Source of the DNA: Dermatemys mawii
Taxonomy: Eukaryota > Chordata > Testudines > Dermatemydidae
Direction: 5' to 3'
DNA length: 64,000 nt
Assembly (NCBI GenBank): GCA_007922305.1
Contig: ML677334.1
Span: 55,974,720 to 56,038,719 of the forward strand
Shown: positions 1 through 61,745 of the stretch, piece after piece
Numbering within the stretch: the first letter of the stretch is position 1
Layout of the letters: each line of letters starts with the position of its first letter
Program-made: the position numbers and the translations under genes
The notes under the pieces: model-generated
What the model was told of the DNA's origin: nothing
The model's input: only the letters and a program-made list of their open reading frames with translations
Database searches by the model: none

Positions 1-661
1 TTGGCAAAATTGTTATTTACCAGTGGCCTTTCCTTATTTTTATTAATAAGAATTAAATATAGCTATTGAACCTCTTTTCCAGTTCTTTTATTCATGTGCC
101 TAATTTATACTATTTATTTTCTCCATCTGATAGAGCTATAAATGCATTGTTCTCTTCATTCCCTTGGGGCAGTAATAATTTATTCTTGTTTTCAGCTGCC
201 CTCATCTTTTCCATGCAGGCATTAACCAGGTCTGCATGCACTACTTATTTTAGTTTCCTAGGCCCTTCTTAATTTCCAGCACACGTTCTTGGTTATTTTT
301 TTTACCCACACAGAGTGCGTAAAAAACCCGAACAAACCCAGAGCAGTGCTTCATAAATCCTCTTTGGGTCACTGTAGGTCCCTTGCATTTTTCTCTCTCA
401 GTGTAATTGTCTTCATTTATGCTCTTATTGCTGTGTATTTATAATCCAGCCACCTTCTACATTTCTGAGTGGTAATCAGGGCCATATATTCTTTTAAACT
501 CCCTCTGTCTATAGAGGTGGTCAGGGAATTTATCTGTGTTATCTGAAATGTGCCATTTCTACATAAGCCTATTTGTTTCTCCTCTCTCCCTTGCCTCATT
601 CACAATAACCAAGCTTCCCTCTTATATCTTCACACACAGTCAAAAACAAGGAATCCTTGCG
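1..661. other. Anonymous AT-rich sequence
   Basis: No gene, RNA gene or repeat family is recognised here. The open frames are short and have ordinary low-complexity composition. It ends where a Penelope-type terminal unit begins at about 662. Confidence 0.5.
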
Positions 662-728
662 GCTCCTTAGAGACTAACAAATTTATTTGGGCATAAGCTT
701 TCATGGGCTAGTTCTTCCCCAGTGGTGA
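662..728 (-). mobile_element. Penelope-type terminal unit with decayed hammerhead motif
   Basis: Read on the minus strand, this holds the GAAAGCTTATG block followed by AATAAATTTGTTAGTCTCTAAGG-like text. That is the same unit seen on the plus strand at 51452-51570. GAAA (plus-strand TTTC at 699-702) would be the conserved hammerhead segment, and AGC/GC on either side of the TTAT loop would be a short stem III. The CTGATGA core and stem II are degraded: CCCAT remains, but its partner strand is altered. The unit is truncated on both sides, so no target-site duplication is visible. Membership in this repeat family is confident. The link to Penelope elements rests on established work showing hammerhead ribozymes in Penelope terminal repeats. 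Confidence 0.55.
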
Positions 729-51441: not shown

Positions 51442-51451
51442 TATCTTTATA

Positions 51452-51494
51452 CTGATGAAGTGGGTCTTAGCCCACGAAAGCTTATAATCCCTAA
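51452..51494 (+). ncRNA. Hammerhead-ribozyme-like motif, decayed stem III
   Basis: CTGATGA (51452-51458) is the conserved core. GTGGG (51460-51464) and CCCAC (51471-51475) form a perfect stem II over a six-base loop. GAAA follows at 51476-51479. In related copies AGC-TTAT-GCT would close stem III, followed by C at the cleavage site. Here the second strand reads AAT, so stem III is lost and cleavage is unlikely. Stem I partners are not obvious. Hammerhead motifs in Penelope terminal repeats are established knowledge; activity here is not claimed. Confidence 0.5.
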
Positions 51495-51570
51495 CATCTG
51501 TTAGTCTATAAGGTGCTACAAGACTCTTTGACGTTTTTGCAGATCCAGACTAACACAGCTAGCCCTCTGA
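51452..51570 (+). mobile_element. Penelope-type terminal unit inserted as a ~117-bp insertion
   Basis: The unit starts at CTGATGAAGTGGG and continues CGAAAGCTTATAATCC, CTGTTAGTCTATAAGGTGC, CAAGACTCTTTGACG, TTTTTGCAGATCC, and ends CAGCTAGCCCTCTGA. It is one copy of an extremely abundant turtle/crocodilian repeat whose other strand is seen at 662-728. A 13-bp duplication encloses it, so it inserted as a discrete short unit, apparently by target-primed retrotransposition. It encodes no protein and would have depended on an element such as the Penelope relic at 59838-61745. Confidence 0.75.
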
Positions 51571-51583
51571 TATCTTTATACTG

Positions 51584-59701: not shown

Positions 59702-59900
59702 CTTTCAGAACATACTTAAAATTAATGGCTAGTCAGACACTACACCAACCCTGTGCTGGGAGATGTTTGCCTCCATTGTGATATGTACAGTGGACTGCCT
59801 TTTCATATGAACCTTTTAGCGAATGGTGCAGAAGGATGCTGTACCTACCAAGAGCTAATATCTTTTTTGGGGTCAACTTTTCTTGCTGAAAGAGATAAGC

Positions 59901-59926
59901 TTTTGAGTTTACACAGAGTTCTTCAG
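59901..59926 (-). ncRNA. Degenerate hammerhead remnant in Penelope terminal repeat
   Basis: On the minus strand CTGAAGA (59920-59926) is a permitted variant of the CTGANGA core. The expected GAAA has become AAAA at 59901-59904, and the stem II strands between them no longer pair well. AGCTTATCT follows, where the short stem III would lie. Not expected to cleave. Confidence 0.35.
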
Positions 59927-60059
59927 GTCTGGGAAAGGGTATCAGTATAACAGCTAAATACAGGTGGAACAGATTGTTAAGTGTAAGCAGGTAAAACATA
60001 TTGCAAGAAACTATTCAAAGGAAGTTGGCAATTAACATCTTTGCAGTCATACCACAAAA

Positions 60060-61605
60060 GAGAGTTAAAATCTGTGTCTCTATGAAAGCCATGATATTTG
60101 GTGTCTAGCAGATTTATGCATTTAATCTCCCAGGCTCATCTTTTAAAGGTGTTTTGCAAATTTCCCTTGAGGATGAGGAGCGAGAGACCAGATGCAGCGT
60201 GATCACTTTATGAAAAGTATTCACCCACAGGCTGTTGGGTGTTTTTATCTTATTTTTCTGTGTGAGTTCATTCAAGAGCATCGTGGTTGTCTAAATTCAC
60301 CTACAGTTATTATTGGGGCATAGACACACTGGATGAGGAACACCACTATTGTAACAGGCATCCGTAGGACCTCTGGATTCGGAAAGGTGTGTTGTGGGGA
60401 ACATGGATCATCATAGCAGTAGAGATATGGCTGCAGGTTTTGCATCTGTTATCACTGCAGGGTCTGGTGCCACTTTGAGTTGATGTGTCCTGGTCTGGAG
60501 GGACCTTGCTTCTGATGATGAGGTTGGCAAGTCTGAGGGATGTGCAAAGGCCAAAAGAGGGGATTCTGGAAATATTTATTTCGGGATGGGGTCCCCATCA
60601 ACTATGGGTCGTACTTATTTGATGCATGAGTTCCAGTGTGAGGCCATAGGTGACAAGTAGGTGTGTGCAGTCAGTGGGTCCCTCCCTCCAACCTGTATTG
60701 AAGCACATTCTCCTGGGGAATTAGGGTGGCCCATTTCATGAAGAATTCTACTTCGCTGGTGGAGTTTCCTTGTTTTATGAAGGTGGTTTTAAGGGTGTAT
60801 TCCAGATTTTCTTCTCAGAACGTATTCTGTAATATCTGAGTGTCTAGCTGTAGATAACAGATTTCTTGGTGTGTCTGAGGTACCTGCTGGATCTGTGGAG
60901 TTAAGTATGATGTTCCATGGGTTTCTTGTATTCAGTTTTCTATTGGGCTCTATTGCTGAAGCTCATTTGCTGCCCAGAAAATTGATGTTAGTGTGGGAGT
61001 GTTCTACAGAGAGCTTGAGGGTAGTGGTTCTTGAATTTGTGATAGAAATCTATAAGGGCATTTAGGTCATCTATATAGAGGATAAAAATGTCATCATGTA
61101 TCTCAGGTAGATCACTGGTTTCATGGTGTGTTTATACAGAATTTTTTTTCCTTGAGGTAGCTTATGAAGAGATTGGCATGTTGGGAAGCCAGGGCTGTTC
61201 CCCTGCTTTGGACAAAGTGATGGTTGTTGAATGTAATTTTGTGAAGAGTGAGGATGAAATGGATGAGTTTGGTGATGTGTTTGGGGTGGATGTCTGAGTG
61301 TTGTCCATTGTTTTGCAGATATCTGAGGCAGGCAGCAATGTATTCATGGACAGGAATGTTGGTGTATAGGGAAGTGATATCCATGGTGGCAAGTATGGTG
61401 TTCTGAGGGAGGTTGTTAATGTTGCAAACTTTCTGGAAGAAGTCAGTTGTATTCTGGAGGACACTTGCCCTTTTTTGTGGTGAGTGGTTTGAGGATGGTT
61501 TCTATGAGTCCTGGTATTCCTTCAGTAAGAATGCCATGAACAGATACAATGGATCTACCTGGGTTCACTCATTTGTGTATCTTGGGAAGCAAGTAGTGGG
61601 TCCCT
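60060..61605 (-). pseudogene. Penelope RT / GIY-YIG endonuclease pseudogene
   Basis: Translation on the minus strand across several frames gives the expected order. A TTCFPRYT segment (about 61590) corresponds to the 'YGLPKIHK' region. DITSLYTNIP at about 61381-61352 is the signature Penelope RT motif. RGTALASQHANLF corresponds to 'GTAMGT..APSYANLF'. YIDD, the catalytic motif, is at 61066-61077. A Cys-rich SDNRCKTC segment lies at 60430-60459. VVFLIQC at about 60345-60320 starts the GIY-YIG domain, followed by PVGE and LLDTKYHGFHRD near 60220-60075. Multiple stops and frameshifts break it. Full-length relatives encode one protein that reverse-transcribes and nicks target DNA. Confidence 0.85.
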
Positions 61606-61745
61606 GAATTGGGTTCGTGGGGGAATAAGAGCTCCGTGGATCTTGAATGCTTGTCTCTTTCACCAACAGCAGCTGGTCCATAAAAGATACCCACCTTGTC
61701 TTTCTCATATCCTGGGATTACCATGGTTACAGCAATACTGCTATA

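Follow-up and report, generated by a model that had tools for sequence, protein, structure and literature searches.

The insert and its target duplication

The window, by which we mean the whole 64,000-nucleotide stretch of DNA analysed, carries on its forward strand an insert proper of 116 bp (51455-51570) flanked on both sides by perfect 13-bp repeats. The two copies of TATCTTTATACTG, at 51442-51454 and 51571-51583, are identical at 13 of 13 positions and identity stops beyond either side, which bears out the 13-bp target duplication around a short insert described in the initial annotation. The unit is a short end-copy of a Penelope-type element, one of many in the same genome. A second copy of its family and a decayed Penelope-like element (PLE) of another family were also located in the window. 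The features are as follows.

51442..51454, no strand: left 13-bp target-site duplication TATCTTTATACTG, the last three bases of which give the CTG of the apparent core
51452..51458, + strand: CTGATGA hammerhead-like core, half target DNA and half insert
51455..51570, + strand: insert, Penelope-like element end, 116 bp, recognised by family copies and a match to the Chelonia mydas protein P0011
51460..51475, + strand: stem II hairpin, predicted by folding
51476..51483, + strand: GAAA and GCTT, with cleavage predicted after 51483 from the general hammerhead rule
51500..51554, + strand: hairpin GTTAGTCT...AGACTAAC, the 3′ strand of which begins the AC-rich end
51540..51570, + strand: 31-nt optional tail, missing in the second window copy and in the left arm of the Chelonia copy
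51571..51583, no strand: right copy of the 13-bp duplication
642..714, − strand: second, older copy of the unit's family (BLAST 656-710, 77%)
59842..59934, − strand: 3′ hammerhead-like tail of the decayed PLE
60358..61649, − strand: decayed PLE belonging to another family, with coding for reverse transcriptase and a GIY-YIG end
61616..61719, + strand: inverted tail copy at the head of the decayed PLE, 72% over 65 bp to its 3′ tail

The CTGATGA motif, stem II (GTGGG/CCCAC) and GAAA are all found in the unit, and its 3′ end is CCCTCTGA, as noted earlier. The insert had also been said to begin with CTGATGA; the motif is present, but its CTG sits in the left repeat and is target DNA, and one extra A separates the core from stem II. 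The same CTG may also match the element as a 3-nt microhomology, and the start of the unit is A6 of the core, or C3 if CTG is shared with the target. When the real ends are joined they give CTGA+ATGAAG, from which CTGATGAAG is recreated only after dropping one base, a correction to the proposal that the unit's own ends would restore the CTGATGA core. From the start of stem II to the end of the unit is a distance of 111 nt. Neither the 13-bp repeat nor the combination of core, stem and GAAA is a strong sign when taken alone, with 30 simulations yielding 29 cases of identical 13-mers within 400 bp, roughly one for each simulated window, and a perfect core, stem and GAAA arising 5 times in 40 simulated windows. 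An AT-richness equal to that of the target is found in 13.6% of the 13-mers in the window. The insert exceeds chance because the family of repeats to which it belongs is present many times in the same genome.

Hammerhead ribozymes are cut 3′ of GAAA and helix III, and we take the corresponding site in the unit to be GAAA-GCTT^A, after 51483. Twenty-nine nucleotides of the insert therefore precede the predicted cut, which lies inside the unit. The core, stem II and GAAA recur across family copies, and in the unit's family stop codons interrupt the ATG frame of the core. Helix I is absent, since three of the four opposed pairs fail between TATA (target, before CTGATGA) and ATAA (after the predicted cut). 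The comparison with hammerhead models that had been suggested as a check returned no Rfam match in the unit itself, in the 3 kb around it or in the whole window, and neither the whole-unit fold (z -0.58) nor the hairpin at 51500..51554 (z -0.66) was better than shuffles.

The decayed PLE has its inverted tail copy joined to it close to the core (about 61623), and its tail bears a weak likeness to the unit (E 0.97). Its protein has named relatives from Gopherus, Alligator and Pangshura, from which a turtle or a nearby lineage is the probable host. We also noted that a Pangshura tecta glucose transporter model (P0010) includes a stretch of PLE reverse transcriptase, which is probably an exonised or mis-annotated element. 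Other repeats in the window comprise a dispersed repeat in two pieces of the same order (45171-45425/57079-57325 and 46057-46218/57366-57536; 74-76% alike) and two inverted repeats (41558-41634/49574-49654, 81 bp, and 8218-8262/8360-8404, 45 bp).

A repeat family linked to Penelope-like elements

Family copies were sought in the 1.81 Gb assembly that holds the window. Exact 28-nt tails occurred genome-wide 986 times for one variant and 501 times for another, compared with 0 for the backward controls, and the unit itself used as query gave at least 51 matches with 40 of 1478 candidates scored. In one of seven other family loci with long flanks (L006; flanks of just 1.5 kb), coding for a GIY-YIG end lies 250-550 nt upstream of the unit (E 1.4e-7 to 1.6e-5), a link between the unit and the 3′ end of a PLE. 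No reverse transcriptase attached to the unit's family was seen at the seven other loci within their 1.5-kb flanks. Given the family copies and the coding upstream in L006, the unit is almost certainly an insertion of a PLE family, and its initial annotation as a short retroposed unit stands.

The sole protein found to contain a translated stretch of the unit is a Chelonia mydas hypothetical protein, P0011 (E 1.5e-7). It carries the unit twice, head-to-head, with residues 39-76 matching 51459-51572 (E 5e-10) and residues 9-33 matching 51528-51454 (E 2e-5). MVQI is present on both sides of the pair and can be read, from the protein sequence, as a putative encoded duplication. The left arm of P0011, like the second window copy, ends without the last 30-40 nt; the second window copy is about 31 nt short and has no convincing duplication. 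The family thus has two 3′ ends approximately 31 nt apart, which marks the terminal 30-40 bp as an optional tail. An optional tail of 31 bp is also described for Adineta PLEs (PMC3846280), and in Anolis the PLE tail corresponds to the stretch between two reverse-transcription start sites (PMC11167929). Exact-pattern scans of viral contigs and bacterial genomes and blastn of phages gave no match, none of 18 pattern matches to PLE loci in viral contigs was confirmed, a protein search with an antisense frame gave no candidate, and the letters of the repeat were not found in the paper texts in which they were looked for.

Where the copies begin

The 5′ ends (heads) were mapped in 156 copies picked solely by their 3′ tail, so that the 5′ end played no part in the choice. 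Sample 1 comprised 96 copies fetched from 100 listed places, the four omitted ones lying on contig C3 and looking like haplotype duplicates of contig C2; sample 2 was a replicate of 60 copies from 100 listed places, with the other tail variant and the same code and head interval. Sample 1 contained 46 single copies, 40 inverted head-to-head copies, 8 unequal inverted copies and 2 with gaps, and sample 2 contained 31 single (7 of which extend to the limit of the retrieved sequence), 27 inverted, 1 unequal and 1 with a gap. The interval for heads (-10..+6) and that for the centres of inverted pairs (-13..+11) were both chosen on sample 1, and heads were set by alignment to two reference strings with an accuracy of a few nt. 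For two sample-1 singles scored short, L063 and L097, repeats of 14 and 11 bp place the inserts at 123 and 256 bp, and these heads were probably mis-set. The tail patterns used for picking end in TA, and the 3′ flank is therefore no independent observation.

Relative to hammerhead position C3, 18 of the 46 single heads of sample 1 lie at -57 or further upstream, 1 at -43, 17 at -10..+6 and 10 at +27 or beyond, giving a density of 1.00 per nt at -10..+6 compared with 0.02-0.12 elsewhere. This peak holds 17 of the 33 heads within -100..+90 (p 4e-10, post hoc). In sample 2 the 31 single heads comprise 14 at -84 or further upstream, 3 at -37..-20, 4 at -10..+6 and 10 at +7 or beyond, with a weak peak (4 of 20 heads within -100..+90, p 0.096). 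Inverted-pair centres fall at -13..+11 in 24 of 40 cases in sample 1 and 16 of 27 in sample 2. The clustering of 5′ ends beside the core, for which the initial annotation had asked, is partly supported, by 21 of 77 singles within 17 nt and 40 of 67 pair centres within 25 nt; the replicate gives good support for the cluster of inverted pairs and weak support, with 4 of 31 singles, for the peak of single copies. A further cluster of heads near -80 was taken for an alignment artefact because the local sequence consists of a run of C whose length varies.

Both samples together (77 singles) have 32 copies extending more than 50 nt upstream of CTGATGA, 4 at -50..-11, 21 at -10..+6 and 20 shorter. 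The family is therefore not bounded at CTGATGA, and the description of the unit as a monomer bounded by its ribozyme is contradicted. The predicted cut site is spanned by 60 of the 77 single copies, which carry the hammerhead uncut, while heads within 2 nt of it number 0 of 46 in sample 1 and 1 of 31 in sample 2; this single head in 77, together with the position of the predicted cut inside the unit, argues against a unit start at the cleavage boundary. The one copy starting exactly at the predicted cut (+32) is L155, for which no duplication was found.

Inverted head-to-head copies make up 67 of the 156; in nine, L075 and L116 among them, exact repeats of 9-15 bp enclose inserts measuring 172-210 bp. 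Duplications were checked in 41 hand-picked copies, four of which the later classification put among the unequal inverted or gapped ones, and in 11 the duplication was better than any obtained in 384 random placements. Six of these 11 have inserts of 120-128 bp (L069, L080, L085, L096, L121 and L126) and the other five have inserts of 57, 73, 75, 174 and 388 bp. In sample 2, the copy L190 shares the anatomy of the unit reported here: its start coincides exactly with CTGATGA and a 13-bp duplication flanks it. A set of 39 similarity-ranked copies, which reveals heads solely upstream of C3, comprised 17 inverted copies, 1 with a gap and 21 singles (16 beyond -50, 2 at -50..-11 and 3 at -10..0); 22 of the 39 (L018, score 8, uncounted) have over 50 nt of sequence in common on the upstream side of the core. 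As judged by eye, L018, L025 and L039 were over-extended by the aligner.

An ordinary PLE insertion with random 5′ truncation, in which the start at the core is coincidental and fixed by the 3-nt CTG microhomology, is in our opinion an unlikely account of these heads. Published accounts describe 5′ truncation of PLEs during insertion (PMC8969392) and junctions made by microhomology (PMC3846280), and random truncation would fit the 20 of 77 singles that end inside the unit, the 32 that end far upstream and the weak peak of the replicate; scatter would not, however, place 17 of 46 sample-1 heads within 17 nt, or 40 of 67 pair centres from both samples within 25 nt. We regard it as distinctly improbable that the hammerhead in its folded state, possibly maintained by the PLE protein, blocks the reverse transcriptase at the 5′ edge of the motif. 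That is where the heads cluster, and the Anolis hammerhead cuts solely when PLE protein is added (PMC11167929), but the enzyme, arriving from the 3′ side, has in these copies already passed both strands of stem II, and any block would be expected to act ahead of that stem.

The retrozyme-like model of the initial annotation, in which a monomer is cut by its ribozyme from a tandem or circular precursor, draws on the short, non-coding unit with its hammerhead-like core, on the duplications of more than 4 bp reported for animal retrozymes (PMC7229834) and on L155, but it is very improbable, not supported and largely refuted by the read-through of the cut in 60 of 77 singles, the near absence of starts at it (0 of 46 and 1 of 31 within 2 nt), the upstream sequence common to 22 of 39 similarity-ranked copies and the lack of any tandem array at the unit's locus. 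A circular, re-ligated template is conceivable, though nothing that we found requires one.

Proposed mechanism and known systems

The best explanation overall, and one that we consider on balance probable, is a leader-sized PLE insertion produced by an internal start and run-off on uncut RNA. The PLE enzyme would nick an AT-rich target, reverse transcription would begin internally on the element RNA approximately 119 nt downstream of C3, and uncut RNA would be copied through the entire hammerhead until copying stopped by run-off near the RNA 5′ end, at about -7. The target CTG could then anneal to the CTG of the cDNA, sealing the 5′ junction and leaving the 13-bp duplication. Inserts resulting from run-off at the RNA 5′ end would measure about 120-128 bp, and head-to-head pairs would arise where both target strands are primed. 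In the Anolis PLE, whose ORF begins at stem II, reverse transcription has an internal start 111-118 nt into that ORF; the enzyme primes both strands, and ribozyme mutants still insert (PMC11167929).

A TATTTATA box at -38..-31 is common to both subfamilies, which otherwise differ upstream, and the decayed PLE of the other family has TATTTA at -34. TATA-like boxes lie approximately 31 nt upstream of the transcription start, and from this spacing the box at -38 predicts a start near -7. The Adineta pLTR has a TATA box and an initiator (PMC3846280). Whether the head is set by the RNA 5′ end, as opposed to random truncation, seems to us evenly balanced. The heads are spread over 17 nt and not confined to one base, and the unit itself starts at +3 (0 with microhomology) rather than at -7. 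No extra 5′ G was seen in the duplication-defined heads among the 41 checked copies.

We tentatively propose, as plausible, that the messenger RNA of these PLEs begins at the hammerhead and that an internal start of copying, just some 125 nt further downstream, leads to frequent run-off and SINE-like leader insertions, single or head-to-head, with cutting leaving almost no trace among insertions. Insertion heads record where copying ended; those mapped here tend to the 5′ edge of the hammerhead and almost never to the cut site, in agreement with the test-tube result of uncut RNA as the usual template in Anolis, and this pattern makes a promoter or RNA-5′-end role of the hammerhead directly testable. 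If the proposal is true, the hammerhead marks the 5′ end of the transcript. We found no description of heads clustering at the hammerhead edge among the papers listed by our searches of the open-licence literature.

Animal non-LTR retrozymes (PMC7229834) resemble the unit, with its hammerhead-like motif, as small, non-coding, retroposed hammerhead units that are candidates for using PLE enzymes; they are tandem, processed by the ribozyme and have circular RNA, in contrast to the solo or inverted copies reading through the cut that we observed. Penelope of Adineta vaga (PMC3846280) shares with the present family a 31-bp optional tail, inverted pLTRs and palindromic head-to-head junctions, as well as a TATA box with initiator, solo pLTRs and microhomology at the 5′ junction; its duplications are 8-10 bp, compared with 13 bp here, and the available part of that account describes no leader-sized copies clustering at the hammerhead. 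The Penelope/Poseidon PLE PAc of Anolis carolinensis (PMC11167929), to which the unit is likened by description and not by sequence alignment, differs in having an ORF that starts at stem II, whereas the unit is a solo non-coding end in which the ATG frame of the core is stopped. Like the unit with its hammerhead-like motif, PAc combines a hammerhead at the unit start with an optional tail and AT-rich targets, and its reverse transcription has, as is proposed for the unit, an internal start approximately 111-118 nt further on, with uncut RNA as the usual template.
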